Source: Zygnema cylindricum
Taxonomy: Eukaryota > Streptophyta > Zygnematophyceae > Zygnematales > Zygnemataceae
Length of the DNA stretch: 64,000 bases
Direction of reading: 5' to 3'
Assembly (NCBI GenBank): GCA_037447655.1
Contig: JBBHKE010002416.1
Location: forward strand, 151,389 to 215,388
The position numbers and the translations under genes are program-made. Within the stretch, counting starts at the first letter, position 1; each line of letters starts with the position of its first letter. Positions 2,710 through 55,142 of this stretch are shown piece after piece. Below the pieces are notes generated by a model, which was given only the letters and a program-made list of their open reading frames with translations, was not told where the DNA came from and searched no databases.

Positions 2710-4110
2710 ATGTCCCTGGTTATTCCGGAAATTCGGTGGGATTTGAAATTTTTCATTCTCTTTCCGCAAAGGAAATTCTGCCCGACAGTCCTTCTTTGCC
2801 TGAACTTTTTCGATAATCCAGGTTTTATTATTGATTTTTGCGAGTTTGATCACATCTACAAACACACACTTCAGATTCCTTTATCACGGGTTCCACCTCT
2901 GCCTTTTATTTCTGTAGATCCTTCCTGTTTTCTTCCCATTAATCGGAATCCAATACAAGTCAAACCTCATTAGGATGGTCTAGTCATTTTAGACCTGTTC
3001 GCAAGCATAGGTACCGTCTGTACTCTCATGCCTTCGCAACGGATTACTTATCAAGCACTACTACTCAGTTGACACTGACCCTTTAGCTCGGAAAGCCTAA
3101 ACACATCACTATAATCTTTTACACGGACAATATCCACATCTTTTCCCTAAATCTGCCTTTGCTCACATGCATACAATATTACCTCAAGATATTCGTTTGA
3201 TAGGAAACCAACACCTTCTCGATGTGGAACCAATCGATCTTCTATTTGCCGGTTGGGAGTGTCAGGGAATGTCACGAGCAGGCAAAGGTCTCGGCTTAGC
3301 TGATCCCCGCACCAAATTATTCTTTGAATTACTTCGTATCATGCATTTTTTGCAATCTTTCGATCGCCCATTGGGATATAATTTGGAAAACGTGGCAGCC
3401 TAAAACGATCCTCGACCTACAGTGTTAGCTGATTACAAGCGGATAGAGGCATTAATTGGTCCTCCTCTTATCATTGATGCCGCTCGTCACGGTTCCTTAG
3501 CTCATCGGGTTTGATCTAAATGGACGAACTTGATTGATATTGGACGCCTTAGAGAAGGAAATTTTTCTGTCAAACCTCCATTTACAGATATTCAGACTGC
3601 ACTTCTTCCTTTTCACAAAGTTCAAACGTGTGTGCAGCCTGATCACCCACTGAATTACAACATTAACGTCTCAGGCCAACCACTCAAAGTTCTCCCCACT
3701 CTAGTGTCTTATCCACACTCTCACTCTTTCTCTGGTGATGGGCCCGGCCTGCTCAGAAATATTCACACAGGCGGCCTGGATGAACCTACAGCCACAGAAC
3801 GGGAACACCTTAAGCATTTCCTTCCCAACACTACGGCTGCCCATGGTCTCACACAACGACAGCGCTACATCTTTTTAGGTTGTGTCATGGACCCTCAATC
3901 CCTCTCATTTGTCTTAGGCCTTGGATTTGCAGCTGGTCGTTACGCACAAACCCATCCATCTCAACCAGCTAGGGGGGGGAATGCACCACCAATTTCTAAA
4001 CACATTGTCACCCTTAGAGGGACACCTTCTCAATTTTTCCTCTTCCCATCCTGTATAAAACCTTCTTCTGATGTCACAATCTACGATTTTTTGAACCCTA
4101 GCCACATGTC
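2710..4110 (+). pseudogene. Cytosine-C5 DNA methyltransferase domain within gypsy 1
   Basis: A DNA methyltransferase-like domain inside a retrotransposon polyprotein. Motif I reads VILDLFASIGT (about 2983-3015; the canonical form is FAGIG). After a frameshift comes motif II-like YSVDTDPLARKA (3062-3097). Motif IV is IDLLFAGWECQGMSRAG (about 3224-3275) with the catalytic Cys kept. Then come DPRTKLFFELLRIM, motif VI as LENV (about 3389), motif VIII as IIDAARHGSLAHRV followed by KWTNL (3470-3535), and C-terminal motifs EPTATERE and QRYIFLG (about 3780-3880). From 3062 to 4318 a single frame holds with three stops (3098, 3401, 3514). The LFFEL/AAR..S.AHR/WTNL pattern resembles Dnmt3/DRM or phage Dcm-like enzymes; the exact family cannot be settled by eye. 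The segment at 2710-2975 is unrecognised lead-in sequence in the same frame as motif I. Confidence 0.85.
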
Positions 4111-4281: not shown

Positions 4282-4319
4282 AATTGCTAACAGGAAACAC
4301 CGGTTGTTTACTCATTAGG

Positions 4320-5240
4320 TCAGTCACTTATCGCGTAGCTTTTGCACAAGCCATGGAAGCAATGACGATTAAAGGTTTGGAATCTCCTAAATGGAAATTT
4401 GGCTCTAATCTCTCTCAATCTGAACATGATCTACTGAACGAAGTGATTCTTCGGAATATCGACGCTTTTGCTTTCTCCATGAATGATCTTGGTCGCCATA
4501 CCACCTATAAAATGTTTATAGATCTGGAAGACGATCGTCCAACTTTGAAGCGGAAACACCGCTTATTTGAAACGGAATGGGAATTAGTGGACCAACGTTG
4601 CGCTGAATTAGAGGAAGCTGGCCCCATTTATCGGTCGGATTCTACTTTTGCAGCACCCACTGTCATGCCCAAAAAAAAAGATGTCAAAGGAAACTTTACC
4701 GATCGCAGGATGTGAGGCGATTACCGAGAACTCAATGCTAGAACGATACAAGATCGACATCCAATGCCATTGGCCGAAAAAATATTTGATCAAGTAGGAG
4801 GCGCTAAATATTTCACTATTCTGGATTTACGACAAGGCTTTAACCAGATTGAAATAGAAGAGAAAGATAGGCATAAAACCGCCTTTTGGGGTAGTGATGG
4901 TCCTAGGGAGTGGTTTGTCATGCCTTTTGGACTAAAGAACGCCCCCGCAGTTTTCCAAAAAGTAATGGATTCAGTTTTAGGTGGTTGCAAGTTTGCACGA
5001 TGTTATATTGATGATTTGATTATCGCCTCTACCACAATTGAAGATCACGCTGCTCATATCGAATGGGTCCTAACTGAACTGAAAAATGTTGGATTAAAAT
5101 GTCATCCAACTAAATGTACTTTCGGGACCGAGGGTGTGCCTTATCTTGGACATTTCATTTCCTCCGAGGGGATCACACCACTTGAAGCAAAAACCGAGGC
5201 TATCAGCAAACTGCCAACCCCCGTTGATCTCACGAATTTC
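4320..5240 (+). pseudogene. pol: Gypsy 1 reverse transcriptase
   Basis: Ty3-type RT domain. The lead-in reads KHRLFETEWELVDQRCAELE, then the core has LDLRQGFNQIEIEEKDR, the fingers/palm FGLKNAPAVFQKVMD and the catalytic YIDDLIIAS (about 5005-5030). It ends with CTFGTEGVPYLGHFISSEGI. One frame runs from 4224 to 5252 with a single TGA (about 4713). A frameshift near 5240 moves the reading to LGLANYYRRF. The catalytic YIDD is intact, but the gene as a whole is broken. Confidence 0.9.
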
Positions 5241-5939
5241 GAGCCTTCTTAGGATTAGCCAATTATTATCGCAGGTTTGTTTCGAGTTTCAGCACTATCG
5301 CTTCACCATTGAACGTTTTGCTCAAGAAAGAAGTTCCTTTTGTATGGGGGCCTGATCAGATTTTGGCTTTTCAGAAGTTGAAAGATGCCCTCTCTAGTGC
5401 TCCCATCCTCCGACCTCCTAATCACAAATTACCTTTGTGCCTACAAACAGACTTTGGAAAGCCTGGCATTGCGACCATCTTAACTCAGCGTGAACTTACA
5501 GGAGAAGAATAAGTGGTCGCTTATGCAAGCAGGAGTAATAATCGAGCGGAGTCAAATTACACTAGTTATGAAGGTGAATGTTTAGCAGCAGTTTGGGGTA
5601 TTGTACACTTTCGTCACTACCTTTAAGGAAAACCGTTTACCCTTCTAACCGACCATCAGCCTTTACATTGGCTGATGACGAACGATAAACTGTCAGGAAA
5701 ATTAGCGCGATGGGCATTAATTTTACAAGATTATGATGTGGAAATAATTCACGATCCAGGATTACTTAGTTTAAATGCAGACGGCATTTCCCGAAATCCT
5801 TTGCCAAAGACCACAGACAATGGAGTTCGGCAAGATTTCGATGACGACTTAGCTACTATGTCAGCAAGGTTTTATATCACACATTCTTTAGCCTCGCTGC
5901 CCCACTCTCGTTCTGCCCCGGATCCATGGCGAGACGGAG
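5241..5939 (+). pseudogene. pol: Gypsy 1 RNase H and connection domain
   Basis: It continues from the RT after a frameshift: LGLANYYRRF, then LQTDFGKPGIATILTQ (first RNase H Asp), [18 protein letters not shown] (Glu) and LLTDHQPLHWL (Asp), then LARWALILQDYDVEIIHDPG. Stops interrupt it at about 5510 and 5624. The reading breaks exactly at the solo LTR at 5940 and resumes after 7040. Confidence 0.85.
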
Positions 5940-7035
5940 TGTTGAAATTTATGTATTTTCTAGGTCTGTGTTGGAAAAATAAATAGAGTGTTGAAAAGAG
6001 GTGACTAATAGTTCACTTCTATATTTTAGTTAGAATGTAAAGAGAGAGAGAAAGAGAGGACCAAAGGCACGCCATGGTTGCCGCATCATTTAGAAGGAGG
6101 AAGAATGAATTAGAAAGTATTTTACTAGTTTTAGCATAATACTGCCGCTGGCCGGATTTGAACCGGGGTCTGTAGCCTACTAAATAAGACCAACGCCTTA
6201 TCCATTAAGTTACTTACGAAACGATACACGTGACGGGTTTCATAAATATATAAACATTAACAAAACAGCTAATTAACAGCAGACTAACCAAAAGGAGCAA
6301 TTTCTGCATGTACGCGAATCTGAACCGTGTAAAATATGTTTTGATCGGGCGGGCCGGCATTATAGCCGCCACGCGAAGTGAGCTTTTTGGCGGCATACGG
6401 ATATAGCGTCACGCGGTGCCACGTGGCGCCACATTATTTGATACCGGAGAAGATGGGAGGAGGAACCATGGCTTCCGATATGACAGGTGTCACCTTGTAG
6501 ACCTTGTCGTACAATGGTCGTACAATAAGTACATCGCCCATTGTACCTTCTTGTACTTTATAGTGTTCCTATTGGACTAGGGTTTAATAGTAGGTAGTCG
6601 TGAGTAGGCAGACCAAGACTTAGTGATATTTAGGTACCTCTCTCTAAGAGAGCTTGTAACTATAAAGGTCATCTTTGACCAGCCATAACTTAATGCTCGG
6701 GTGAGCAAATTCAGTGATTCTTTTTGCTGCGGACTCAGGGGGGTCTAAGCTACACAAGGGTGTAGTCGGTCAGAGTCTTTGCGTGCCAGGGTGGCACTTA
6801 TTTAGTGGGAAAGTCAAAGTGGGGAGTATTGTCCAAAACACATATTCAAGCTTTGCATTATGTGGTGGAACTGAGCACACAAAAGGTCTTCTCTTCACTG
6901 GGGTGAAGGTGTATTGGGGTTTTGATTGTCAAGGGATCATTCATTGGGGTTTATATCAACTTGGAGTCGGCACTATCTAGATTAGCTTCTTTTGGATCTG
7001 CGAATTCTGTGGGCAATGGAGCCCATAGAATTTCA
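5940..7035 (+). mobile_element. Solo LTR (type B) inserted in gypsy 1, TSD CGGAG
   Basis: It runs from TGTTGAAATTTATG to ...CATAGAATTTCA, 1096 bp, flanked by a perfect 5-bp duplication CGGAG (5935-5939 and 7036-7040). No internal region is present, so LTR-LTR recombination has removed the rest. It carries an antisense tRNA-like block, a GCCACGTGGCGCCAC motif near 6419, a GTAC cluster (6508-6553) and an ATGGAG near its 3' end like the other families. Near-identical LTRs lie at 49379-50615 and, in reverse, at 63895 to the window end. Confidence 0.92.
6143..6222 (-). other. tRNA-like block in solo LTR, antisense
   Basis: The minus strand reads an A-box-like taacttaatggataaggcg and a B-box GGTTCAAATCC (6154-6164) enclosed by a CCGG/CCGG T-stem. 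It resembles an Arg-type tRNA in its D-arm. No T4 run follows closely. This is the most tRNA-like of the series, but an acceptor stem is not clear. Confidence 0.6.
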
Positions 7036-7040: not shown

Positions 7041-8240
7041 CACTAATTCTTTTCATCTCCTCACAAACCTTCTGACCAAGCACTACATCCGAGGAGGAAC
7101 GAGTAAAGAAAAGGGCTAAAAATTATATTTGGTTAGGTGGTTCGCTAGTTCGATTGTTAGCGGACAGTAGTCACAGACACGTGCCTCGCCCGACAACACG
7201 CTTCTCGATGATTGAACAAATTCACTCCGAGCTGGGTCACTATGGGACCAATCGCACCTTAAGCTTGCTGCAGGCACGCTATTGGTGGTCAGGGATGCAA
7301 TCTGATGTCGCAGCGGTATTGCACAAGTGTGCAATATGTGATCGTCTACGTACCTTTTTGAGTAACCGGCAGACTACCCTCCAACCATTACCCATCAAGG
7401 GGTTATTTACCGCTGGTCGTGCGATTTCGAAGGCCCCTTTCTGATATCCCGGAGGGGGAAACAATATATAATGATCATGATTGAAAATTTCAGCAAATGG
7501 GTTGAAGTAATAGCGTTACCCCACAAAACTGCTAAGCTCACCACCGCCGCTTTTAAAGAACATGTCCTTATGAGATACGGCACTCCAGCCGAAGTCCTCA
7601 CAAATCAAGGGACTGAATTCCGCGGAGAATTCTAAGAAATGCTAGATGACGCTCTCATAGACCATCGTCGAACAAGTCGCGATCATCCACACGCTGATGG
7701 ATTGGCGGAACGTGCAGTTCAGACCTTCAAGCGGGCATTACTCAAGCATTGCTTGGAAAAACAAATAACAGTGTGGGACGAGTCACTTGGCTATATTGCC
7801 ATGGGGTATCGAATGTCAGTACAGGCGAGTCTTTCCAATTTCAGTCCATATTATGTCTTGTTTTGGGCGTCAACCCTTATTGGGTAGGAATATCCAGAAA
7901 GCCGCAAGCTTTCCGCTTCCCTTAGTGTCTGACGGGGTTTTATTGGAAGAAATCACCAACCGGGCGTTGCTTTTTGCTCGAGAGATGCCTATGGCTTTTG
8001 ACAACCTGGAGATCGCCCAGCACATAGATACTTTGCGCTTCGCCACAACACGCAGCGGCAGCTACCGGCCCCAGCAGAAGCCTTACCGAGTGGGAGATTA
8101 TGTCTACTTACGTCGCCAATCCTTCGATTCCTTGGACACAAATGTTTCACCTCATATTCTCCGAATTATCGAAGTAGACACGAATGGCATGCTATGACTT
8201 TAAGAAGCAGATACACGAACCTTTCGGGAGCATTCGAAGA
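7041..8240 (+). pseudogene. pol: Gypsy 1 integrase
   Basis: Integrase with an N-terminal HHCC zinc domain (IHSELGHYG ... HKCAICDR, 7220-7345) and a DDE core. The core has FEGPFLISRRGNN (first Asp region, about 7430), LTNQGTEFRGEF (second Asp replaced by Asn, about 7597) and HADGLAERAVQTFK (Glu, about 7693). Frame changes occur near 7410 and 7870 and a stop at about 7635. The C-terminal part reads EITNRALLFAREMP and KPYRVGDYVYLRR, typical of the integrase tail. It is non-functional. Confidence 0.88.
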
Positions 8241-8289
8241 ACTGTGCTCCATATTATTTACCAGATCTCTCCAGGATATGGACCCTATG

Positions 8290-8492
8290 TGTATGCCTAT
8301 CACTGAGGCTACAGAATGCACATTTTGCAACCGAGCCGGCAGATAAACGTCAATGTTTCTATGCAACCATTCCAACCAGGGATTTCACATGGAGTGTTTG
8401 GTTTTGCCGTTAACAGCGGTTCCGGACGTTCATTGGTTTTGTCACGGTTGCCAGGAGTTACCAGTCGTGTTGGCCAGCTTTTCGGCAGGCTA
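8290..8492 (+). pseudogene. PHD finger C-terminal to gypsy 1 integrase
   Basis: In the frame TECTFCNRAGR the sequence fits a C4HC3 PHD finger. It has CTFC, an 11-residue spacer with one stop, CNHS (the fourth ligand Cys is Ser), GFHMEC, then LPLTAVPDVHWFCHGC. The HMECLxxPLTxVP..WFC layout is characteristic of histone-tail-reading PHD fingers. It occupies the position where chromoviruses carry a chromodomain. The domain ends at a TAA about 8492, just before the polypurine tract. Confidence 0.85.
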
Positions 8493-8515
8493 AAGAGATG
8501 GGGGAGGGAATAAAA
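8493..8515 (+). other. Polypurine tract of gypsy 1
   Basis: AGAGATGGGGGAGGGAA lies directly before a TG-starting LTR, as expected for the plus-strand primer. Confidence 0.6.
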
Positions 8516-9889
8516 TGAGCCTCCTAGCTTCCTTTCTCACCCTACCTTGATTTTTCTTATGATTTGTTTATTTGTTGGTTGGTGCTTGTACATAATTATT
8601 CTCACTTGTTTTCTGATATTTTAATGACTTTCTCGCTTATTTCGTTAACATTTATGTTTCAGCTGGTTGTGTTGCATGTTTATCATAATCTTTGTCACAT
8701 GCACGATAGCTGTCATGCCGCATCTCAACGACGCACCAAATTATATTTATTTACATGGTAATGGTCTTTAATATAAAGGACGCCACACTAATTTACTCAT
8801 GGGGATATTTTGGTGGCGACAGGACCGTACAGATTTTATTCCGACGCCGTGAAATCCGCGGACATTTCAGATTCTGTTCGCGAAATCGTCAGCCGCCGGA
8901 ATTTACGCGAACCGATGTGGTTTGCTGTCCGAGAATTTTGGCGAACCGACATACTTCGTCGGCCGGATTTTCCGCGACCAAGTTTGAATCGATGTACGGA
9001 CGGTCGCGAACCGAAACATCAACTCCAAATAATGTCGACGCCAGCGTGGATTTGAACGAAATCTACGGCCACGAAAGATGTAGACAAATGGACGATCCGG
9101 ATACGAACTACACCCGTCGACGCTGATTCGTCCATTTTAAGTGGTGGGCCCTTGGAGGTCGCACGCATTCACATGTAGTGTAGGAAGGGTTTTTATGCGT
9201 AGGCTGTAGATTTTGTAACGTAAGGCAGACGATTCTGGTCACCTATTGGCCAGAATCCAAACTAGGCGCAGACAACTACTTAGAATGCATGTATTTGCAG
9301 TAGGTTAGGCGCCCAGCTCTAGAATTCATACTTAGCGAATTTTAGGAGAATTATGTGCTCACAATTTCAAGAGCACAGGAATTCTCATTTTGGAAGATTT
9401 GACCTAAACTTTGAGGATTTTTCTTGTGAAATTGTCAAGATAGCTTTAGTGACTATTTTTCTGGTCATTAAGCGTTCTGCTGCTTAGCTTTTACTTTCTT
9501 TCTTCGTAAACCTGCCCTACAAATTAATCTACGCGGCTCACGCCGAAGCCTAACCGGTTTTCCTTCACTTCTTCTCGCGTCTTATCAAGTGGATTGCTGC
9601 TCGGTCTTGTTTCTCATGATGTTGCTGAACCTTGGATTGTGATTGGATAGTTTTGGGTTTGCTTGTGTGGTTTACTACGTGATAGTGGATTAGGGTTGGC
9701 TTTCCTCGTATGTTTTGTGTGTGACTAAATCTGGTTATCTCAAATTTGCTCGCAGTTTGCTACAGTTTTTGTTTGTGTGTTGTGATATTGAGTTAAATCT
9801 TTATTTATTGAACTCCTGTAAGGAATATATACTGACCAAGGAACCTAGTGGCTATCCGTTGGCTTAATATTCTTGTGCTCTTGAAATTG
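8516..9889 (+). mobile_element. Probable 3' LTR of gypsy 1
   Basis: It begins TGAGCCTCCTAGC after the polypurine tract. A TATA-like element (ttaatataaagg, about 8768) precedes a GC-richer stretch (8800-9130). The right boundary is uncertain; I end it where its first 190 bp begin again at 9890. No protein domain was recognised in it; the reading frame at 8755-9126 has no family features. Confidence 0.5.
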
Positions 9890-10078
9890 TGCCTGCTAGC
9901 TTCCTTTCTCACCCTATCTTGATTTTTCTTATGATATGTTTATTTGCTGCTTTGCTTCTACATAATTATTCTCACTTGTTATCTGAGATTTTAATGACTT
10001 TCTCCCTTATTTCGTTATCATTTATCATTCAGCTGGTTGTGTTGCATGTTTATCATAATCTTTATCATATGCACGACA
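9890..10078 (+). repeat. Second copy of the gypsy 1 LTR start
   Basis: This block repeats 8518-8708 at high identity (shared ctagcttcctttctcaccct and gttgtgttgcatgtttatca). It is cut off at 10078, where copia C sequence begins. It could be a tandem LTR, or an internal LTR duplication. Confidence 0.75.
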
Positions 10079-27739: not shown

Positions 27740-27879
27740 TATACATTTAGAGTGGACCGGTTGCACGACGTCCACAAAAGAATTGAAGCCGCAAGGTACC
27801 AAAAGGTATAAGTGGTGGCGGCTAATGACAAAGTCGGTGGATGACAAAGTTGAGGACAAAAAAAATATTTCGTACAGTG

Positions 27880-28165
27880 TCGAGCGTGCCTGAGTAATGT
27901 GAGGGAAGGGCCCACATCCCGGATTTTCCAGCACCGAAGTCCTGCAAAAAAAGCCCCAAATGCGAATGCTCCCTCATTGATGATCATGCCCACTGCTGCC
28001 CACATTCCTCTCATCGATATGCATGCAAAACAGGAGAGAAACTCGGTCTGGGAAAAAAGAAGAGTGTAGGGGAAGGCAAAAGTTACCCCCTCCCCCTTCC
28101 TTCCCCCCCCCCGGGCCGGGGGAAGGGATTTGGGTCTCGGTAATCGAACTGATATCCCAATTTTG
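27880..28165 (-). mobile_element. Gypsy-2 LTR start, truncated
   Basis: On the minus strand from 28165 it reads AAATTGGGATATCAG... and stays similar to the LTR at 29197-29674 until about 27880 (CAGGCACGCTCGACA), then diverges. It abuts the leader block 28166-28957, so an internal region appears deleted. Confidence 0.6.
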
Positions 28166-28957
28166 TGCTTCCTCCAGGTGAAGCCTATCGCACTTGTTCC
28201 CTCAAAACCCACTGCCCCGATTCGGGGGATTACAGTGTACTCCGGAAGGGTCCTTCCAAAGCAAAAGAGAACTCCAGATGAAGACACAAATGGACTACCA
28301 CGTAGATATATATATAAATAAAAATGATTGGCTTTCCAGATTTAACAATATCACCTTTCCCTAGAAAAGAGAATGAAAGATAGAAAATGAGAGGTAAAGC
28401 GAAACAAACTGAACATACCCCAACAATTAACGATGACAATTAGGGAACGGCGACCCCCATCCTCCGATAGTATCGTGAATAGGTATGGTACTCCCACAAC
28501 CTTTGGTGACCGCAACCCGAAATCCACCAGACTGTTCTCGGTTCAAAACAGCAAAATGTCCAAAATCACCCAAAAGGAAGGTAGTGCCAACTAACCGCCC
28601 GGACTGAGATTTCCACAAAAGACAAATCCAAAACCAAGATGGCAATAGAGTCGAGAACAAAACAAAGATTCTTCCAAAAGAAGGTTTGTTGGAATTTTTG
28701 AGGGTTTTCACAGGAAACAGTACTAAAAAGCAACCTGCCTCCTTCGACCCCAAGTGCATTATACATCAAAGTTTGTCAAATGGCAGGTCCAAAAGTTAAA
28801 GCTATGCTATTAACCAATGAGCGGCAAGCAAGTGTAAGGGAATTGACACAAGGCAAAATAATCTGTACTACACTCGGGGCAAAACGTTTTGCTCCGGACT
28901 GCGGCTAGATCCACGGCCAGAAGTTATTACTTGATCCACTATTACAAGACAAAGTCC
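28166..28957 (-). mobile_element. Gypsy-2 leader block, copy 1
   Basis: It is about 90% similar to 53696-54490, which lies directly upstream of gag of gypsy 2b. It is probably the long untranslated leader between LTR and gag rather than coding DNA, although it could instead be an LTR of its own. Open frames in it have no family match. Confidence 0.6.
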
Positions 28958-29196
28958 TGAAAAGGACACTAACTTGCAAGACTTTGACCTAATGTAATTA
29001 ATGGACCAAAAGCCAGTTGTACCAGAACTAAATTGCTACAGACAGGTAATAGCATAATGTAAACTGCAATCCGAAAGTTTAAGTGGCAATCCCCAATGTA
29101 CCCCCCACTAGGGCTAGCGGAAGCTGGTACTATTTAACTGAATTGCAATCTTTGAGACGATAGAACTTTGTCTTCCGGCCTCTGTAGGCGCCAAAT
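28958..29196 (-). mobile_element. Gypsy-2 leader start with PBS
   Basis: The minus strand begins TTTGGCGCCTACAGAGGCCGG (TGGCGCC at 29187-29193), a PBS-like motif common in plant Ty3/gypsy elements, then runs into the leader block. This supports reading 29197-29674 as an LTR followed by an internal 5' end. Confidence 0.55.
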
Positions 29197-29674
29197 AAAG
29201 TGCGTTCCGCTCAGTTTAGGGAATACAAGGATCTGGTCCGGCTCGGTGCACTTATTCCTTCGTACTGTGAGGACCGTACAAGGGAGAAAGAGTCCGGAAA
29301 TCCTTATGGGTATAAAAGTGTGCCTGAAAAGCACACGAGCTTGAGAGCTGTCGAGCGTGCCTGAGTAACATAAGCGAAGGTGTCGAACGTGCCCGAGAAT
29401 CCCAAGGGAAGGACCCACAGCCCGGAGTGGTTGGCCTCGGATTCTTGCAAAGAACCTCCCCAAATGCGAAAGGCTTCCCAGAATAATGATCATGCCCACT
29501 GCTGAACCCCCATCCTTCCCATAGATATGCATGCAAAGATAGGAGAGACACATGAACCAAGAGTAAGAGTAAGTGCATGGGAAGGCGAAAAGATCTTACC
29601 TCCCCCTTCCTTTCCCATTTGGCTGGGGAAAGGGATTTGGGTTCTCGGTAATCGGGTCGGTGCCCTAATTTCCC
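29197..29674 (-). mobile_element. Gypsy-2 LTR (about 480 bp)
   Basis: It follows the PPT CTAAGAGGGGG (29675-29685) downstream of integrase-PHD 2a, starts GGGAAATTAGGG, contains a TATA-like TTTTATACCC (about 29305-29315), and ends near 29197 before a TGGCGCC PBS. It therefore acts as the 3' LTR of 2a and the 5' LTR of the deleted element to its left. Confidence 0.6.
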
Positions 29675-29711: not shown

Positions 29712-31239
29712 TTACGCGCCCAATTCACAGTTCTCGCAGAACCATGGATTAGGGGATGGAGAGCGTGATTCCCACGAGGAGGGGAGACAAGCTGGATAGT
29801 AACACTGACCGCACTGATTGCAGGCCAAGATGTCGTGCTGCGTGGAGGACAGGTTGCATGATGAAAAACAAGAAGGAGGGTCGGTAAAGTAAGTCAAGTG
29901 GAAAGTGGGTTCGTCTTCCAATTCTTGAAGATGGCAAGGAGCCACATTGATGTGATTCTCTTTAATTCTTCGACCATCTTTCCCCTCCAAAGTCAGAACT
30001 CCTTTGTTTGAGACTTCCACCACTTTCAAAATCACCCGCCCGGCAGAAATGTCAAGCGTGTCTTTTTTCTGTTGCATTCAATATACAAAATCTCCCGGCA
30101 TAAACCGTCGCTGTCTGGGCACATAATCCCTGTTCCGACGCTGGGAATACCACAATTGTTCCGGTGTTGTGCCGCCTGTAAATTCCCCATGGCGAGAGGC
30201 ATCTCTCGGTGGAAGATCTTGGCACGATCGGCTATCAGTTTTTCGACAGTCCCTTTGTGATCCATTTCTGGGAGGACCACAGCTTGGGCCGAGGCAGCCC
30301 CGGGCAGAATGGGATGCCGTCCGAATAAGATGAAGTAAGGACTATAGGAGTGGAGGGAAGCTTCTCTGCTGAATCTGTATCCCATGGCAATTGAAGGAAC
30401 CCTTTTGTCCCATTCTCCCAAGTCCTCTTCCACGGCATATTTCCGTAGGGACCGCTTCACTGTTTGTACGCACCTTTCGGCCAAACCGTCGGCTTGAGGG
30501 TGGTCGCGACTGGTAAGTCGATGGTCGATGAGGCATTTCTCCAAAAGATTTGTAAATTCTCCGGCGAATTCCGATCCCTGGTCTGTCAGAACCTCTGCTG
30601 GCGCTCCAAATTGGGACAGGATCCTCTGCAAGAAAGCGTCGGCGATGGACTTGGACTCCTTTCGGGGCAGAACCACAAGCTCTATCCATTTGGAGAAATG
30701 TTCAATCATGACCAGGACGAAACGATTCCCACGTCTGCTAATCGGAAGAGGTCCCAAAAGATCCAAAGACCACCGATAAAACATCCCCCGGATAGGGAGA
30801 GAATGCAGCTTAGTCCCGCCCTTTTTGTCAAAGGAGGCCTTAACTCGATTGTAGGAAGAGCAAGTTTGTACGATTCGGTTGACTTGGGCCCGCAACCCGT
30901 GCCACCAATACGAGCTTGTAACTAGGGAAGTGGTCCGCTTCTGCCCGAAGTGTCCTCATTGCTTGTGGAGATTAGTAATCAGAGTTTCTCGATCTGATGG
31001 GGGAGGAACCACTTTCCTCGTACCGTCTGACCATTTGTGGAGGAGAACACATCGGTCCCATTCATACGCCGCCATCCAGGTCTGCACTTGGGACAATTGA
31101 ACTCCAGCCAAATGGGGAAGAGGCGATGCATGCTGGATGGATTGGAGAGCCTGGGAGTCGTTCCAGATGTCTTTCCGTCCGGCTCCAATGGGTACCTGCC
31201 CCTCAACATCTGCTGCAAAGGTGGACAGTGCCCCCCCAG
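29712..31239 (-). pseudogene. pol: Gypsy 2a integrase plus PHD finger
   Basis: The best-preserved integrase of the window. A linker and HHCC region lie at 30895-31239 (DVFSSTNGQTVRGKW, then VQTCSSYNRVKASFDKK). The DDE core includes LDLLGPLPISRRGNRFVLV (Asp), LTDQGSEFAGEF (Asp) and HPQADGLAERCVQTVKR (Glu), 30300-30800. A long frame covers 30032-30895; a frameshift near 30070 leads to DISAGRVILKVVEVSNKGVL and then a PHD finger. The PHD has CFSSC, ILACNQCGQCYYPAC (His ligand replaced by Tyr) and PWFCENC, and ends at ELGA (29712). RT and upstream domains are absent; at 31240 it joins the truncated LTR of 2b. Confidence 0.88.
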
Positions 31240-31435
31240 ATGGAGGAATCATGCCTACTGCTACCTGCATTCTTCCCATCGATATGCATGCAAAATAGGA
31301 GAGACGCTCGGTCAGGGAATAAGGAAGAGTGCAGGGGAAGGCGAAAGTTACCCCCTCCCCTTTCTTTCCCCCCCCCCCCCCCGGCCGGGGGAAGGGATTT
31401 GAGTCTCGCTAATCTGGCTGATATCCCAATTTCCA
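31240..31435 (-). mobile_element. Gypsy 2b 3' LTR, truncated
   Basis: After PPT AACAAAAAGGGGG (31436-31448) the minus strand starts TGGAAATTGGGATATCAG and continues as in 29674 downward until 31240, where 2a integrase sequence begins. It includes a C/G homopolymer-rich stretch at 31365-31390. Confidence 0.65.
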
Positions 31436-31448
31436 CCCCCTTTTTGTT

Positions 31449-31595
31449 AGTAGTGACTAAGACATCAAAACAATTACCCGCTTCATTCTCAGTTCCAATA
31501 GAACCACGTTTTGGAGGGTAGAAGGGGTGGCTCCTAAGAGGAGGGGAGACATGGTGAATGCCAACACTGACCACACTGATTGCAGACCAACATGT
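31449..31595 (-). pseudogene. Gypsy 2b PHD finger, C-terminal part
   Basis: The minus strand reads MLVCNQCGQCWHSPC and then a tail with a stop and PSKTWFYWN, so the last CxxC is degraded. Unlike 2a the His ligand is present. The finger is cut at 31595 by the tandem copia and continues at 43210. Confidence 0.8.
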
Positions 31596-32592
31596 TGTTG
31601 AAAAAAATAGTTTTTGTTATTTTCTAAGTCTTAATATTAGCGGAAATGGGGAACATGCAGGTAGCTTGTTTTCATCTCTTCTCTCTTACCCCCATACTTG
31701 TTGTAGTCACTGAAGGAGAGAGAGAGTGATGGAGCCATGGCTGCCTCCGCTCCATAAACAAGGATAGAGAGTGACTTGAAGTCACTCTCTACAAAAAGGT
31801 TGAGTCCAACAAGACTCGAACCCCCGACAGGTAGATCTTGGCGTAGCCGTCCGCTCTTACCAGTCTGTCGTAGATGTTCGCAAAAATACATAGGGTGTGA
31901 TTTGTATTTAAAGTATGTTACATCCCATAATCCGATTAACAGAAATGTAAATGTTACATCATAGAACGGGTTAAATTCAGTGCGGACTGGATCCCGCACG
32001 AAACAAATAAATTTGACATTTGTTTCGACAGACAACATTTAATGCCGGTTCGTATCCAACGGCATACGTCTTCGCCGAGATTCCGAAAAGGTCACTTTGG
32101 CGTTTTATGACGTGGCATGACCTGGAGCCACGTGGAGAGATGACATTTGGTCATGGGAATTCCGAGGAACGTATGGACGATTGAAAATCTGACACGCGTC
32201 AGCATTTTAGCCTTGTCGTACATATGCCGTACAAATGGTACACCGGCACAAGTACTTTTTGGTACGGTACACTAATCTGATTGGTCCGTACTTTAGTAGA
32301 TAGAAGTTATTAGAGGGAATCAGGACTTTGAAAATTTTGGTAGGTAGTCACCTCTCCCTTTGAGAGTTTGTACAAATTGGCATTTTTACTGCCTCATAAC
32401 TTATTGGCTGGTTGGCCGTTTTCAGTGATTTTTTTTGCTACAGACTCAAGGGAGTCCAAACTGCAGAGGGGTGCATTCAAACTGTCAGTTTGCCATTTTT
32501 GGACAGCAATTGTTGTGGCTTAAAGTGGGTTAGTTAAATACTATCCAGAGGCTTCCTGTATTCTGTGGTTTAATGGAGAACACGGAATTGCA
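31596..32592 (+). mobile_element. Tandem copia LTR1
   Basis: 997 bp, TGTTGAAAAAAATAG to GGAATTGCA. It has GTAC sites (seven in 32218-32292), ACGTGGC and CCACGTGG (32109-32133), and a tRNA-like block. PBS AGTTATGGGCCCACC follows at 32593-32607. Confidence 0.9.
31798..31873 (-). other. tRNA-like block in LTR1, antisense
   Basis: The minus strand reads gactggtaagagcggacggc (A-box-like), GGGTTCGAGTCT (B-box, 31812-31823) and then T5 at 31793-31797, two bases after ACTCAACC. This is the clearest Pol III-like layout of the series. Confidence 0.65.
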
Positions 32593-43209: not shown

Positions 43210-44510
43210 TATGTTGTGTAGCTGCAAGGACTGGTTGCAAGTTTGTTATCAGGAAGGAGCATGAGCAAAGTAAGTTAAGTGAAAAGTTGGTTCGTCTTCC
43301 AATCCCCAAAGATGGCAAGGGGCCACATTGATATGATTCTCTTTAATTCTTCGACCATCCTTTCCCTCCATTGTTACAACCTATTTGTTGGAAACTTCGA
43401 CCACTTTCAAAATTGCTCTCCGGCAGAAAAATCTAGCGTGTCTTTCTTTTGTTGTATCCGATATACAAAGTCCCTCGGCGTAAATCGTCGCTGCCGAGCA
43501 CCTATCTCCCGCTTCGGCGATGAGAATACCACAACTGATCTCAGTGTTAAGCCGCCTGCAAATTCCCCATGGCGATTGGCATCTCTCGATGGAATATCTT
43601 AGCTCTGTCGGCGATTAGGTTTTTGATTGTTCCCTTGTCATCCATCTCCGGAAGGACCACCGCTTGGGCCGATGCACCTTCGAGCAAGAAAAGATGTTGT
43701 CCAAAAAAAATGAAATAAGGGTTGTTGGAGTGGAGAGAAGTTTGCCTGTTGAACTTGTATCCCATAGCAATCCAAGGCACCATTCTTTCCCACTCCCGCA
43801 AATCTTCTTCAACGGCATATTTGCGAAGTGAACGCTTCACTGTCTGTAAGCATCTTTCGGCCAAGCCGTCAGCTTGCGGGTGGTCGTGGCTTGTCAGCCG
43901 ATGGTCGACTAGACATTTTCCAAGAGGTTTGAAAATTCTCCGGCAAATTCGGAGCCTTGGTCGGTAAGAACTTTCGCAGGCGCCCTGAATTGGGCTAGGA
44001 TCCTCTGCAAAAAGAAATCTGCAATTGCCTTGGACTCCTTCCGGGGAAAAACCACCAATTTGATCCACTTAGAAAAATGTTCTGTCATGAATAGCACGAA
44101 GCGATTCCCCCGTTTGTTGGTTAGGAGAGCCCCCAAAAGATCCAGCAACCAGGGATAAAACATCCCGCGGATAGGATGTAAATGAAGCTCAGTCCCACCC
44201 TTTTTGTCAAAAGCTGCCTTGACTCGATCCCACGAGGAGCACGTCTGCACAATTCAATTGACGTGGGTCTGCAACCCATGCCACCAATAAGAGCCCGTAA
44301 CCAAGGAAGTGGTTCGCTTTTGCCCGAAGTGTCCACATTGCTGGTGGAGATTGGAAATCCGAGTTTCTCGGTCTGAAGGGGGAGGAACCACATTCCTCGT
44401 GCCGTCTAACCATTTCTGAAGGAGAACACCTCTGTCCCAATCATAAGTAGCCATCCGCGTCTGCACTCGGGATAATTGAATTCTAGTCAAGTGGGGGAGT
44501 GGCGACCCCT
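43210..44510 (-). pseudogene. pol: Gypsy 2b integrase and PHD N-terminal part
   Basis: Minus strand. Zinc domain NLHQQCGHFGQKRTT ... VQTCSSW (44220-44370), then GMFYPWLLDLLGALL (Asp), AKVLTDQGSEFAGEFSNLL (Asp) and HPQADGLAERCLQTVKRSL (Glu, about 43860). The tail has MPIAMGNLQAA and GRRTNFSLNLLCSC (about 43270-43310). It runs into the first half of a PHD finger and is cut by the copia at 43210. Two frames and several stops occur. It is similar to 2a (29712-31239) but clearly diverged. Confidence 0.88.
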
Positions 44511-44563: not shown

Positions 44564-46000
44564 CTATGGGCGCTTGCCCCTCCACGCCGACCGAGAAAGT
44601 TGACGGTTCTCCCCTAGTGTGGGGAAGCCAGATGAAAGCGGAGGAGGCTCGAATGAGTCCCAGAGTGATCTCCGGGTCCTCATCATGCCGAGCCTCGGTA
44701 GAATCAATTTCGGATTCGGGCTAAGTCTGTCGGCATTCCCATGGATTTCCCCTGCCCTATAAACAATGTCAAAATCATATTCCTGTAGGCTGAGAACCCA
44801 TCTGGCGAGTTTGTTGGTTAACTTACTATTTTCTATGATCCACTTCAGGGGTTGGTGATCAGTAATCAGGGTGAAATGGACCCCGTACAAATAGGGCCGG
44901 AAATGCTGGATTGCCCACAGTGCCGCGAGTAGCTCTCCGTGGTAGCTACTATAATTCTCCTCGGCTATGTTGTTGCTGCGGTTGGCGTAGGCCACCACAT
45001 ATTCAGCTCCGGCATCATCGACTTGAGCCAAAATCGCTCCCAATCGAAACCGGCTCCAATCAGTATAAAGGAGGAAAGGCCATTGGTGATCAGGCATCCG
45101 GAACACGGGGTGTTGTTTTAGAGCATCCTTCAAGAAATGCAAGGAGATTTGTTGTTCTTCGGCCCACTTCCATTTTTGGTCCTTCAGTAAGAGCTGATTA
45201 AGGGGCTGAGCGTGACTACTAAACTCGGGAATAAACCGCCGATAGTAGTTGGCACGACCCAGAAAGGTGCGAAGGGCCGAGTTGTCATGTGCGGGGGGAA
45301 GAGCCTCAAGGGCTACCACCTTGACCATATGGGGACCCGCAGTCCGGGAGTCACCTCGTGTCCGAGGTTAATGATTTTTTGTACACCAAAGATACCTTTG
45401 CCTGGGTGACATTTCAAGCCACTTGCTTGGAGTGCCCGGAGAACGATCTGTAAATGCTCCAAATGTTCCTCAAAAGTCTTTGAGAAGATGATAACATCAT
45501 CAATATAGCATCGGGCACTGTCGATTCCTCGGAGCGCTTCGTCCATTGCCCGTTGGAATTTTGCCGGAGAATTCTTAAGCTCGAACGTCATGTAAATCCA
45601 TTCATAAAGTCTGGAACCGGCCCATAATGCAGCTCTCCCCTTTGCTTCGGTTCCATGGCAATCTGGTGGAACCCATTCTTCATGTCCAGAGTAGAGTAGA
45701 TACTAGAGCGTGCAAGAGAGTCGAATATCTCTTCCGGGGTTGGCATCGGATACCGATCAGAGATGGTGGCCATGTTCAGCATGCGATAATCTCCATACAT
45801 CCGGAAATCTACAGTCTTCTCGGACGAGTTCTTCTTGGGAGGAAAAACTGTAGGGGAAGCGAACCCATGGAGTCCTGTACTTTCTTGAAACAATCTGGCT
45901 TCCACCAAAGTTAGGACTTTTGCGGTGAAGTATTCTGCCAAACAGTAGCCTTCTCCTCGATCAAATCTATTCGGAAAGGTGTTCGTTTGTAAATATCGAC
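44564..46000 (-). pseudogene. pol: Gypsy 2b reverse transcriptase and RNase H
   Basis: RT pieces are FASPTVFPPKKNSSEKTVDF, DYRMLNMATISDRYPMPTPE, IYSTLDMKNGFHQIAM and CYIDDVIIFSKTFEEH (catalytic YIDD, about 45500). RNase H and connection (254 codons open, 44564-45328): ALRTFLGRANYYRRFIPEFS, LYTDWSRFRLGAILAQ (Asp), YHGELLAALWAIQHFRPYL (Glu), LITDHQPLKWI (Asp), LARWVLSLQEYDFDIVYRAG. The RNase H frame is the longest intact one of this element. Frameshifts separate the pieces. Confidence 0.9.
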
Positions 46001-46123: not shown

Positions 46124-47480
46124 CTAGGCCTCCAGCTGTCTACCCCAAAGGTTAATGTCGAATTCCAATCCTACCAATGGATATGCCTCTCCTCCTCCGG
46201 CTAGGACACTAATGCTGACAACTTCCGCTAAGTTGTCGCCATTTGAGCCGCCCCCCCCCCTCTCCACTGGTAAAACTTGCGGTGATGAAATGTGAATTTT
46301 TCTCCTTTCTCTCCCCCGCTCAAGCTGCAAAGTTGCCTGCATTGCTAACAACTGAGGAGCTTGAAGGTAAATCGCCCTGGCTTTTGGGGACTTGAGATTG
46401 GAAAAGGCGAGTGCATGCTTGAGCACCCATGTGATTGAATTTAAATCCAAATTTTGTCGAATTAGGCTACACCTCTTAAGGTCTAAAATACTTGGTGCTG
46501 CCGTGGTTCCTCTTTGAAATCCCATGGCTTCTTCCCGTTCCGCAATCGTCGGTGTTGTCCAGAATCCCGCTTTACTGTCAAAAATCATTCCCGCCGCTCC
46601 TTTCGGATAAGCATGACTGTGAGTGAAGGAAACCAAAGTCGAGAGTGCTTTCCGTGGTAATCTCGGTTTGTTGCACTAGAAGAAAGGGGGCCGGTCGGGT
46701 CTTGTCACGAGGTGGCCATCCTGCCTTCCCCAAGAATTTGCTACACAAAATTCTTTGGATCGGGCATATGCTTGTCCAACAGTAGCCGGAGGATTGGAAG
46801 TGGGATCCTATTGGTCCAATATGTCGTTACTTGATGGGCCCGGGATCCCATTTGTGCAGCGTCAAAAACCAAAGGAGCTCCTAAAATCCGCGTTACGTGA
46901 TTCTAACTGTTCGCCACCTGTTTTCTTTTATCGTCTCCTGGGTGGACATTTTCCAAAACGTACCCTACCAGTGTGTTCTGGAGCTGTTGAATCCATGTGA
47001 TTAATTCTATCATTCGGTAAAATGTTCCACTTCTGCGGTCCTGATGCCCTTTCCCTTATCCCGCGAGGGAGTATCCTTGATAAGGCCAGCCTGCTATCAC
47101 GAAATCCACCCTCCCCAAATTCGCCAAAAAGGGCGCCATGATGTTTTCTACATTTTGGGGAAGACTTCGGTGAGCTTTGGAAAAGGCAGTCACTGGAAGC
47201 TGTTGAGGATATAGGTGATGAAGTTGGTGGAGTCGGTGTTTGCTGACAGTCCGCGCCTCGGGTGATATTTCCACTGCTGCGTTTGACTCTACCATACATC
47301 CTGTTTTAAAAATTGCTTCCATATCGGAACTAATTCTCGAAAAAAGAGTGATAAAATACGCAGTCTGGAATCGGGGACTACCAATGACACCACTTGTCGA
47401 TCGAACTTTTTGTCACTAGCCATGGGTTTGGAAGCCACTGATACTGGTGTAGGAACAACTTCCTTTTAGGTTAAGGCCGA
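46124..47480 (-). pseudogene. Cytosine-C5 DNA methyltransferase domain within gypsy 2b
   Basis: The domain sits between protease and RT. Reading on the minus strand: motif I region RILSLF + SRISSDMEAIFKTG (a T-run frameshift splits it, about 47320-47380; canonical FSGI is FSRI). Motif II-like AAVEISPEARTVSKHRL. Motif IV VDFVIAGWPYQGYSLAG (about 47056-47105), where the catalytic PCQ is PYQ. Then DRRSGTFYRMIEL, motif VI VGYVLENV (about 46950), motif VIII LVFDAAQMGSRAHQV with YWTNRI (about 46790-46860), and C-terminal STLVSFTHSHAY, TPTIAEREEAMGFQRGTTAA (46480-46640). Stops at 47056, about 46905 and about 46740. The Cys to Tyr change makes this copy catalytically dead even if read through. Confidence 0.87.
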
Positions 47481-47491: not shown

Positions 47492-48315
47492 TTACTCCCC
47501 GCTGGATTTTTGCCACCTGTAACAATATGTCTTTGTATTCCTCTTCCCACCGCTTGGAAATGGGGAATTGCTAGATTTCTTTGGTAATATCTGTGGAACT
47601 GCCAAACAGTTCGTCGGAGTGGATGTAGTATACACTGGGTAGCAACCAGCTACCAGGACATTAGTCTTTCCACGGTTCCATAAATCCTTAGGAACCACCA
47701 CTTTGGTTCTTTCAGGGATTCCGAGGTCCCGAACTGTACATTGATCCTTCCACACACTCAAACTCATATTAAGCCGGGTCCATATGGCCATTCCCAACAG
47801 AATTTCGAATTGAGTCCCTTCCACCACTAAGAATGGAAGCCCAATCTTCACTCGTTGGCCTCCATCATCAGAGAATTTGATATTCATGGCCTTGATTATT
47901 CCATAGACTGGCTGAATGCCGCTGCTTATAGTACTTAAGCAGATATTGCTTGGGCAGATTTCGGACCGGAGCTCTTTGGGCATTTTATTCAACGCGGAGG
48001 TGGTGATTAGGTTAGGAGCCCTCTAGTGTCGACCATAGCGTCTTGGTATCCCTCTTACCCGTTTAGCTTGAAATTTCCGGTTCGGTTCAGTATAAGAGCA
48101 ACTGATAAGGCTTTGTAGTCCCTATCCACTATAGGGGTCTTCGGATCGGCGGACAAAAAAACTGCGGTTGGCGGAGCAGTCCTGTTGACTTTCCTTTTTC
48201 CAGAGTGGATCTCCTCTCCCAATGCCTGAAAGAGGATTTCTTCGGGCACGTTGTGGGAGGAGGCTAGGGTCTTCACGTGGGTGAAGGCGTATGGCATGAG
48301 ATGCCGGACCAAGAT
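47492..48315 (-). pseudogene. pol: Gypsy 2b aspartic protease
   Basis: Retropepsin-like domain. QDAMVDT + GAPNLITTSALNKMPKEL gives a D-T-G-A active site split by a frameshift (about 48015-48035). Further on are VYGIIKAMNIKFSDDGGQRV and FLVVEGTQFEILLGMAIWTR, where the ILLGM segment matches the flap/C-terminal hydrophobic motif. Upstream (48055-48312) lies a helical lead-in ending NRTGNFKLNG. A low-complexity tail follows toward the methyltransferase. Confidence 0.8.
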
Positions 48316-48393: not shown

Positions 48394-49378
48394 TCATTTT
48401 TCCTTATTCTTAGAGCCGGAATCTGGGATTGGAGGTGTTTGGGGAGTGTCATTCTCCGGGCGTTCTGCCATGAATCTCTCAAACCAGTCCTGATTGTCAT
48501 TCTTCTCTTGTTCCAGTGACTCCTTCTCTGGCCGTTGTCTCTCGTTTTGGTAGTTCTCGAAACCGAGAGGCAATCTAGGTTTTAGAAGGAGAGAGGAAGG
48601 GTTATTGGATTTTATTCCGAGGGCTACGTCGCCGTTCAACATCAGTGTTTGGGGAGTAAATGATAAAGGGCCTGTAGCTTTCCGATTGTGGTCCCTCGGA
48701 CCCATTTTTTGCTTGTCCTCTCTCTGCTGCGAGGTAGAATTGTGGAGTTGGCGACGATTGTCTCCCACCCCAACATTCTAAGCTCCGGACAGGGAGGTTC
48801 GGGCATAGTGGGCATTTAGGGGTTCCAAATCCCAACCTAATAAGTCGTCATCATTGGCACCCTTTGTGCCTTGAAGCTCAAGCTTTGCGAGTTTTTGTAA
48901 CAATTCATGTTTTTGCTTTTGAAGTCGTTGTGTTGTCGTGAGAGGAGCAAGCCGGGCAAAAGATTCCAAACGGAGGGCAGCCAGTTCGGCAGCCATTGCG
49001 GCTAGTTGCTGACTCTACTGCTGTATGATTATTTCTGGCGTAAGCCTGGCCGGAGCAGCCGGTGCTGGCTCAGGCCTCTTCGGCGTGGACAGAACTTGGC
49101 GTCCCCAAGGGTAAAGTAGTTGAAGTTGGAGAGGGTTAACGACCATTTCTCCTTCTCCAGTAAAGAAAGCAAATTGCATCATCTCCTTGGGAACTCCGTT
49201 CTTCCAAAAACACTGCCCTTCCTTGTGCCCCAGAAATCCACAAGCTTCGCACTTGTCACCTTCGGTGGTATATTTACTCCGGATCTCGTTGGAGATTTGG
49301 GCGTCATCAAACTTTGAAAGTTTGATTTGCCGCAAATGAGATTGGGACATCTTAGAGCTCTCGTTCCGGGGAGTAGGA
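48394..49378 (-). pseudogene. gag: Gypsy 2b gag, C-terminal part with second CCHC knuckle
   Basis: The minus strand has MSQSHLRQIKLSKFDDAQIS and a knuckle CEACGFLGHKEGQC (about 49220-49262), all ligands present. A helical segment LESFARLAPLTTTQRLQKQK follows (48778-48996), then a Pro/Asn-rich tail (PENDTPQTPPIPDSGSKNKE). The N-terminal side is interrupted by the solo LTR at 49379. Confidence 0.78.
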
Positions 49379-49567
49379 TATTCAAATGTATGTATTTTCT
49401 AGGTCTGTATTGCAAAAAATAAATAGAGTAAGTCAACAAAGGCTGCCTGCTTCTTGTTCAAATCTCTCCGGTCCCCATACTTGTTGCAGTCACTGAAGAC
49501 CACAGAGAGAGCTAGAGCCATGGCCGTCTAAAGAGGATAGGCTAATTCGTCGTTTGTACCAAAATGA

Positions 49568-49642
49568 TTGTGCCGGGGTCAGGATTTGATCCTGGTACCC
49601 CCACACTATATTAGACGTTAGCTTTAGCCAATAGCTTAGAGT
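49568..49642 (-). other. tRNA-like block 1 in solo LTR 49379
   Basis: B-box-like complement of ggatttgatcc (49582-49592) with CAGG/CCTG stem; A-box-like complement at 49622-49640 (tattggctaaagctaacg on the minus strand). Confidence 0.55.
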
Positions 49643-49730
49643 AAACGATGGCATATGTGGGGTACAATAGGTATTTATAAGTGTAGAAGTAGAGAGTTCT
49701 AACAAACTAACAAATAACCAAAGACTGTTC

Positions 49731-49802
49731 TTGACCAGATTTGAACCATGGTCTATGGTTATATTTGTAGAGGTAAGCCTTAACCAATAAGGCGTTATCG
49801 AA
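49731..49802 (-). other. tRNA-like block 2 in solo LTR 49379
   Basis: Minus strand: tattggttaaggcttacc (A-box-like, 49774-49792) and GGTTCAAATCT (B-box, 49737-49747). It corresponds in position to 6143-6222. Confidence 0.55.
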
Positions 49803-54490: not shown

Positions 54491-55142
54491 AACTTTTGAA
54501 GCATAGTTAAAAAGTAGGTTAAAGTAGGCCCATACAATATGCCTATTGTACGCAAAACATAAAATATGCCCTTAAGACTTATAGTGTATTTGTCGAAAAA
54601 TGAAAAAAAGGGTAACAAGGTTGAGCTGCACATCGATCGATAGAGAATTAAACGTCATGTCTAAATTTTTTAAAACATTCGGACAAAAAATATATTTACT
54701 GTGAGTTTTGAGGTGCTTTTAATTTAAACCGTCAGATTTGGACGATCGGACGGTCGATGATCAAAGTAGCGATCTTAAGAAGATCACATGAAAAGCCCAT
54801 AACACAACTTACGATAGGACTATCTGTCATATTAGCGTCTGCAATTTTGAAGGCCACACTAAATAAAGCCTCAAATTGACCAACCAGGGTTGCCCGTCCG
54901 CTTTTTTTTTTTTCCGGGTTTTCTTTCCCGCGGAATGTCATCCTACGCCGTGTCAGTTTGCTAAAAAAAATCGTCAGGTGGCGTGCGCTGTACTTTGATC
55001 ATACGTCATATTAGTACGATCGTACAGGAGTGTCCACAATGCACACCCATACAATATGCCTACTCTACACGAGGTTAGTGCCAAGTTTTGTGCGCCTACA
55101 AATGGCCTATCATAAAAACGCCTACTTTTGAACTATATTTTG
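54491..55142. other. No gene recognised
   Basis: AT-rich sequence with two related lines containing cccatacaatatgcctat (54530) and cccatacaatatgcctac (55044), about 515 bp apart. No coding or LTR features seen. Confidence 0.5.

Follow-up and report, generated by a model that had tools for sequence, protein, structure and literature searches.

We analyzed a stretch of 64,000 nucleotides from the streptophyte alga Zygnema cylindricum (contig JBBHKE010002416.1, positions 151,389 to 215,388; hereafter, the window), which carries two Ty3/Gypsy retrotransposons with a cytosine-C5 DNA methyltransferase (DNMT) domain, element 1 on the plus strand and element 2 on the minus strand, and a fragment with an integrase and a PHD finger (copy 3). 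From 5' to 3' on the same strand, element 1 comprises pieces of the DNMT, reverse transcriptase (RT), RNase H, and integrase, and element 2 has its DNMT at the same place. The order RT–RNase H–integrase, with a DDE integrase, was found in both elements and in L002, an open-frame relative from a public genome, and is that of Ty3/Gypsy elements. The domains are arranged as gag–protease–DNMT–UAG–RT–RNase H–integrase–PHD. The original prediction of a DNMT domain in element 1, upstream of a Ty3/Gypsy RT on the same strand, was confirmed, and the sequences support the capture of a DNMT by a Gypsy element. That prediction did not include element 2, nor the PHD finger, split repeats, and stop codon between the DNMT and RT. 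Both elements in the window are dead.

DNMT domains in two Gypsy elements

In a Pfam profile search, a single frame piece of element 1 (3101-3403) matched PF00145 without any joining (E-value of 9.6e-10), and the body of the domain with X at three stop codons (3023-3982) gave an E-value of 6.2e-9; a significant match was thus obtained. The domain had been placed at 2975-3940, and its limits are better set at approximately 2974-3985; the reading frame continues to a TAG (4316-4318), and the C-terminal piece (3515-4318) had no Pfam match of its own. The profile match spans motifs I or IV to VI, and the later motifs rest on alignment. Motif IV (GWECQG), motif VI (LENV), a motif VIII-like block (IDAARHGSLAHR...KWTN), and a C-terminal block (ERE...QRYIFLG) follow one another as predicted, and the last three are common to L002 and, in part, to element 2. 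The predicted motif I (DGLVILDLFASIGT, 2974-3015) lies in a frame different from that of the body, and motif IV has Glu at the Pro position of GWPCQG in L002. At least one frameshift and three in-frame stops (TAA, TAA, and TGA) were found, and thus the DNMT of element 1 is a dead copy. Its AlphaFold model was not usable (mean predicted local distance difference test score, pLDDT, of 33).

On the minus strand, the DNMT of element 2 (47379-46380) is followed by the RT, RNase H, and integrase. It matched PF00145 with an E-value of 8.7e-5 and 22.5 bits against a cut-off of 22, and its motif IV reads GWPYQG, with Tyr in place of Cys. The DNMTs of elements 1 and 2 were 34% identical over 169 residues, with an E-value of 1e-34 in a single comparison and 1.7e-36 in a tblastn search of the whole window. 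Pieces of element 1 matched element 2 colinearly across the DNMT (37% and 33% identity), RT (40% and 50%), RNase H (44% and 55%), and integrase (36-49%). No nucleotide match between the two coding regions was found in the self-comparison of the window at an E-value threshold of 1e-10, which suggests that the two lineages parted long ago.

Open-frame relative, stop codon, integrase tail, and repeats

A two-sequence DNMT profile (elements 1 and 2) matched six loci in genome contigs, one of which, L002 (CADCWO010000201.1), was matched over residues 2-312. L002 is filed under an uncultured Synechococcales metagenome-assembled genome (MAG; AVDCRST_MAG81). One frame encodes gag, protease, and DNMT (3-3491), and after a single stop the same frame encodes RT, RNase H, integrase, and a PHD finger (3492-6635); the apparent start of gag lies at the opposite contig end, and both ends share 66 identical bases. 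Pfam matches were obtained for DNA_methylase (6.8e-12), RVT_1 (4.3e-31), RT_RNaseH (1.8e-38), and rve (1.2e-13), and that for the protease was weak (7.8e-4, under the cut-off). The DNMT of L002 retains GWPCQG, FENV, and the motif I glycines (VELFAGIGTGL) in an open frame. The second open reading frame (ORF2) matched elements 1 and 2 in colinear order, and the gag–protease part had no tblastn match in the window. L002 is probably a retroelement of eukaryotic origin that was assigned to a bacterial MAG and contaminates a public genome, and we would guess a streptophyte alga as its true host. Among the other loci, L003, L004, and L006 (Streptomyces) matched around motif IV only, and L007 is also from Streptomyces. 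L005 was rejected as an ordinary bacterial C5 methyltransferase, and so was L001, one of the two loci (with L008) from the viral contigs and an ordinary C5 methyltransferase by its ORF; viral contigs scanned with the element 1 DNMT, the element 1 RT, and L002 ORF2 yielded no confirmed relative.

In L002, element 1, and element 2 (3/3), the first in-frame stop past the C-terminal DNMT block and before the RT is TAG (3489-3491 in L002; Table 1 for the others). The distance from the end of DNMT homology to this TAG is 310 nt in L002 and 298 nt in element 2 (from query residue 323), and 283 nt in L002 versus 376 nt in element 1 (from residue 332). Two perfect tandem duplications of 30 and 32 nt in the DNMT–RT linker of element 1 (4141-4281) can account for 62 nt of its excess length. 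The stop context of L002, UAG CAA UCA between two in-frame ORFs, fits the CAR-YYA context of tobacco mosaic virus (TMV), which is essential for TMV readthrough (PMC2754532; also PMC2194720). The stop of L002 is thus possibly leaky in the manner of TMV, and if so, the DNMT would be made together with Gag, and RT–integrase–PHD would be made by readthrough only.

The integrase of element 1 carries a PHD finger at its C-terminus, as does that of L002 (PF00628, E-value of 4.3e-10). The PHD finger of copy 3 (29712-30077, minus strand) gave 6.4e-5 and 23.3 bits against a cut-off of 24, and this piece alone found nothing below 0.016 in the PDB. In element 2, the finger is split by a Copia-like insertion, one side ending at 43210 and the decayed other side resuming at 31599. 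The C4HC3 ligands are complete in L002, and some have been lost in the window copies. A relaxed C4HC3 pattern had one match in the six-frame window (element 1) and none in 20 neighbouring-base-pair shuffles; the pattern was relaxed after inspecting element 1, and it misses copy 3.

Instead of plain long terminal repeats (LTRs), split repeats of A and B types were found. Element 1 shows B...B only, with a purine run before the first copy. In the sense of element 2, the order is A1, B, B, A2, and B2; regions A1 and A2 were 89.1% identical over 799 bp, and the B pairs were 86%, 74%, and 72% identical. No clear primer-binding site was seen when sought by eye after A1. No such repeat was seen in the non-coding part of L002, which a collapse of the repeat during assembly would explain. 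The repeats fit, without proving, the A-coding-B-A-B plan of the KnitGypsy-Dnmt3/DIRS type; they are not proof because Copia-like insertions (43210/31599) and copy 3 intervene. Copy 3 lies within 27877-31598 and is flanked by B copies of element 2. This region may be a mixture of two elements, as the A1/A2 pair (89%) and two of the B copies (86%) show higher identity than the third B copy (72-74%).

Table 1. Features of the two DNMT-bearing elements and copy 3 in the window, each element listed from its 5' side
Feature	Element	Positions	Strand	Remarks
Motif I block DGLVILDLFASIGT	1	2974..3015	+	Resembles VELFAGIGTGL of L002; frame other than the rest of the domain
C5-cytosine methyltransferase body	1	3023..3982	+	Three in-frame stops; 38% identity to L002 DNMT over 307 aa, E 4.9e-53
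TAG, first in-frame stop past the DNMT C-terminal part, before the RT region	1	4316..4318	+	
RT region (Ty3/Gypsy), broken	1	4398..5252	+	PF00078 8.5e-30 (4716-5252); L002 ORF2 match 4398-5243
RNase H region in pieces	1	5228..5944	+	PF17919 2.4e-11, PF17917 6.7e-9
Repeat inserted between RNase H and integrase	1	5989..7035	+	Self-comparison: 82% to 24475-23646, 94% to 49777-50615
Integrase in pieces (H2C2 zinc site, rve core, C-terminal part)	1	7076..8263	+	PF17921 3.3e-16, PF00665 1.4e-8
PHD finger at integrase end	1	8299..8469	+	PF00628 1.3e-7
Polypurine-tract-like purine run just 5' of B1	1	8500..8510	+	
Repeat B1	1	8512..8706	+	90.8% identical to 9884-10076
Putative repeat A2	1	8707..9883	+	Suggested by position only; no second A copy in the window
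Repeat B2	1	9884..10076	+	
Repeat A1 (5' side)	2	53695..54492	-	89.1% to 28165-28962 over 799 bp
Gag region, two CCHC zinc knuckles by eye	2	49015..51288	-	Weak Pfam zinc-knuckle matches (E 0.085, 0.13); repeat 49777-50615 inserted
Protease-like ORF (by eye)	2	47492..48022	-	No significant Pfam match
C5-cytosine methyltransferase domain, broken	2	46380..47379	-	PF00145 8.7e-5; 34% to element 1 over 169 aa; 38% to L002 over 182 aa
TAG, first in-frame stop past the DNMT C-terminal part, before the RT	2	46124..46126	-	
Reverse transcriptase	2	45265..45908	-	PF00078 2.9e-5, one piece, under the family cut-off; matches to element 1 and L002
RNase H region	2	44711..45274	-	PF17917 2.5e-32, PF17919 8.8e-29
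Integrase	2	43508..44508	-	Matches to element 1 and L002
Integrase C-terminus, as far as the Copia-like insertion	2	43210..43490	-	74% identity to copy 3 over 70 aa
Decayed second half of PHD finger, past the Copia-like insertion	2	31486..31599	-	
Repeat B copy	2	31248..31432	-	86% to 27983-28163
Fragment, integrase and PHD finger	Copy 3	29727..31171	-	PF00665 1.1e-13, PF00628 6.4e-5
Repeat B copy adjoining copy 3		29380..29654	-	73.8% to 27877-28146
Repeat A2 (3' side)		28165..28962	-	Pairs with A1
Repeat B2, directly after A2		27877..28163	-	

The window has a GC content of 43% and many nested repeats, some of them Copia-like by eye. Two Copia-like units stand in tandem at 31596-42462, are 99.6% identical over 5.5 kb, and have a common repeat of approximately 190 bp; either the tandem arrangement is recent or the assembly has duplicated a unit. 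An expansin-like ORF (55724-56644; PF01357 9.7e-21, DPBB_1) was the sole clear cellular gene noticed in the window, a short AGGG/AGAG microsatellite lies at 59872-59949, and Rfam and tRNA scans of the window found nothing. The window content suggests a streptophyte host and, from the GC content, one that is probably not Klebsormidium nitens.

Origin and role of the methyltransferase

The motif order I-IV-VI-VIII-X is Dnmt3-like and lacks the DRM rearrangement, in which motifs VI-X precede I-V; a DRM origin was ruled out by this order. DRM chains in the PDB matched L002 weakly (E-values of 0.006-0.028) over query residues 5-128, up to motif IV. Searched against the PDB, the body of the element 1 DNMT found DNMT3A (1.5e-7), then HhaI (3.5e-3) and DNMT2 (0.21), the joint profile of elements 1 and 2 found DNMT3C first (2.4e-7), and L002 also ranked DNMT3 first. 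In a Foldseek search with the AlphaFold model of the L002 DNMT, the best 50 of 109 matches (E-value of 0.001 or below) were all DNMT3-family enzymes or complexes; given the low pLDDT of the model and TM-scores of 0.31-0.37 (normalised by query), this is support and not proof. The catalytic pair of motif IV is PC in L002, EC in element 1, and PY in element 2. As L002 has PCQ where DNMT3A and DNMT3C have PCN, and therefore not the Pro-Cys-Asn of Dnmt3, we call the domain Dnmt3-like and do not file it as Dnmt3. Among themselves, the three DNMTs scored 113-176 bits, and thus form one group.

Codon comparison points to constraint on the DNMT. Between L002 and element 1 (302 codons), the differences at codon positions 1, 2, and 3 were 0.49, 0.42, and 0.73, and between L002 and element 2 (274 codons) they were 0.51, 0.40, and 0.69; the corresponding values for the RT were 0.41, 0.31, and 0.69 (element 1) and 0.41, 0.31, and 0.61 (element 2). 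Aligning codons by protein similarity in itself reduces the differences seen at the first two positions, and a codon can be counted twice where matches overlap, as seen for the integrase. The third-position excess in the DNMT can therefore be considered to support purifying selection and is not a test of the ratio of nonsynonymous to synonymous substitution rates.

Taken together, the window elements are probably decayed copies of a Ty3/Gypsy lineage into which a Dnmt3-like cytosine methyltransferase and a PHD finger had been recruited, and we propose for it a Gag–protease–DNMT product, a leaky UAG, and a writer/reader mechanism. Translation would yield mainly Gag–protease–DNMT, and some ribosomes would pass the leaky UAG to add the RT–integrase–PHD extension, so that the DNMT would be packaged at a Gag-like rather than an RT-like dose. 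The packaged DNMT might methylate the new complementary DNA (cDNA), or the chromatin of the landing site, no later than integration. The PHD finger at the end of the integrase might bind a state of the histone H3 tail and steer or hold the integration complex, comparable to the role proposed for the chromodomain of chromoviruses. Together, writer and reader would direct the new copy to selected chromatin and mark it there. The copies in the window no longer perform this proposed mechanism.

Several observations weigh against this reading. Neither element 1 nor element 2 has CAR-YYA after its UAG, further stops are present in both, and the RT of element 1 is in a frame different from that of the DNMT. 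A second TAGCAATCA lies on the minus strand of L002, and the motif can arise by chance; for the readthrough 9-mer in L002, 0.27 copies were expected and two were seen, and two or more were reached in 7 of 200 shuffles. The DNMT of element 2 (P0003) alone found no DNMT3 chain in the PDB (best match of 0.039 to an unrelated protein; HhaI at 0.28), and the fold model of the L002 DNMT is weak, with a mean pLDDT of 48.6 and higher values confined to residues 1-167, loops excluded. Conservation is lower for the DNMT (39% identity) than for the RT (50-52%) and RNase H (61-65%). The observed/expected CpG ratio was 0.69-0.90 in four stretches of DNMT elements, of which that of element 2 includes an inserted repeat, versus 0.46-0.65 in four stretches of Copia-like sequence; the value for the whole window was 0.73. 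The original prediction had raised the idea of a self-methylating element, and this part found no support from CpG content, as CpG depletion in the DNMT elements is weaker than that of the Copia-like stretches. Both window copies are also broken. Self-methylation is something we only infer from the sequences.

The DNMT might instead be a host gene that landed in or beside one Gypsy copy by nested insertion and never formed part of the element, in a window where nested repeats are abundant and element 1 itself is interrupted by another repeat. This was ruled out by the position and order of the DNMT, which are identical in element 1, element 2, and L002; together with the open frame that joins the L002 DNMT to gag-like and protease regions and the third-position excess in its codons, this leaves the insertion next to no credence. 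Nor do we give much weight to L002 being truly cyanobacterial, as its filing under a Synechococcales MAG would have it, and thus uninformative on eukaryotic elements; with a Gypsy RT/RNase H, a DDE integrase, and a PHD finger, which is a eukaryotic chromatin domain, and with colinearity to two elements in a plant-like window, such an origin is very improbable. A more substantial doubt concerns the source of the DNMT, which could be a C5 methyltransferase of phage or bacterial type whose likeness to Dnmt3 reflects shared ancestry or convergence. Motif IV PCQG occurs in the bacterial and several phage enzymes compared. In pairwise BLAST with frames of L003, L004, and L006 and with five phage enzymes and one plasmid enzyme, drawn from 452 phage and 109 plasmid records with a match (24-34% identity in the 20 rows listed), the phage enzymes outscored DNMT3A, represented by a 123-residue fragment, for L002 (51-62 bits for the five versus 43.5) and element 2 (best phage enzyme 50.1 versus 21.6). 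For element 1, however, the DNMT3A fragment (49.7 bits) was level with the best phage enzyme (50.1), DNMT3 came first in the PDB profile and fold rankings, and a published tree placed the KnitGypsy DNMTs in Dnmt3 (PMC5890265), which makes such a source doubtful, though a candidate to be taken seriously.

The domain could also serve the element otherwise than by DNA self-methylation, with RNA as its substrate or as a scaffold that binds nucleic acid within the particle. The changes in motif IV (Glu for Pro in element 1 and Tyr for Cys in element 2) and the lack of extra CpG decay in the DNMT elements would agree with this, as would the yeast assays, in which neither the KnitGypsy DNMT nor that of the long interspersed nuclear element (LINE) produced methylation, a test called inconclusive, and an RNA target was raised for the LINE (PMC5890265). 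The motif IV changes can, however, be decay, because elements 1 and 2 are dead, and L002 retains GWPCQG, ENV, and the motif I glycines, while DNMT3 chains rank before DNMT2 in the PDB; we therefore find such a role unlikely. Extending the writer/reader reading of a captured Dnmt3-like DNMT, we tentatively suggest, as a possibility short of an expectation, that an old streptophyte Gypsy lineage, beyond Klebsormidium, kept a writer and an integrase PHD reader, with the writer encoded together with Gag before a leaky stop to give many methyltransferases per particle that mark the cDNA or landing site while the PHD finger selects the chromatin. If true, DNMT capture predates the parting of these element lineages and does not belong to the lineage of K. 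nitens alone.

DNA methyltransferases are known from few retroelements, and it is puzzling that a parasite should carry an enzyme that silences it. Whether cDNA, the target site, or nothing is methylated becomes testable with a second host context, an open-frame relative that has kept the catalytic Cys, a PHD finger on the integrase, and a stop that, if leaky, would set the dose of the enzyme. How old the capture is also matters for the question of whether de novo methylation in plants was shaped in part by such elements.

Comparison with known systems

Retroelements bearing a DNMT are already known (de Mendoza 2018, PMC5890265), and the window elements extend a rare algal case; the original prediction rightly named this precedent, which includes a Gypsy element, KnitGypsy-Dnmt3 of Klebsormidium nitens. 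Like the elements here, KnitGypsy-Dnmt3 has a non-rearranged Dnmt3-type DNMT inside an LTR Gypsy polyprotein, and purifying selection on the DNMT is reported for it, as is a DIRS-like repeat structure that the split repeats here may share; A-coding-B-A-B repeats, the DIRS-type plan, are said to hold for it (PMC5890265). Its DNMT, however, lies in the Pol polyprotein, whereas that of L002 lies upstream of the stop in the gag–protease frame. The dinoflagellate SymbioDIRS-Dnmt3 and SymbioLINE-Dnmt also captured DNMTs, with the Dnmt3 domain of SymbioDIRS in Pol, but use a DIRS tyrosine recombinase or LINE machinery instead of a Gypsy RT and DDE integrase; SymbioDIRS DNMTs gave CG methylation in yeast, and the KnitGypsy test was inconclusive (PMC5890265). 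In the passages of PMC12344493, retrotransposon DNMT3s are named only from the de Mendoza study, and the LTR element is called Copia. The term PHD has no occurrence in the main text of PMC5890265. Among the literature matches listed (titles, abstract starts, and a few passages), we recognised neither a PHD finger at a Gypsy integrase tail nor a leaky stop behind a retroelement DNMT.

We know of no chromovirus with a DNMT. Chromoviruses are Ty3/Gypsy elements with a chromodomain at the integrase C-terminus (PMC3350952), whereas the reader here is a PHD finger. PAT/DIRS elements may resemble the present ones in their A1-B1-A2-B2 split direct repeats and differ in having a tyrosine recombinase instead of the DDE integrase found here (PMC4157794). 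An orchid Gypsy with AlkB is likewise a plant Gypsy with a captured nucleic-acid-modification enzyme, but the enzyme is an RNA demethylase encoded in an additional ORF (PMC9289625).
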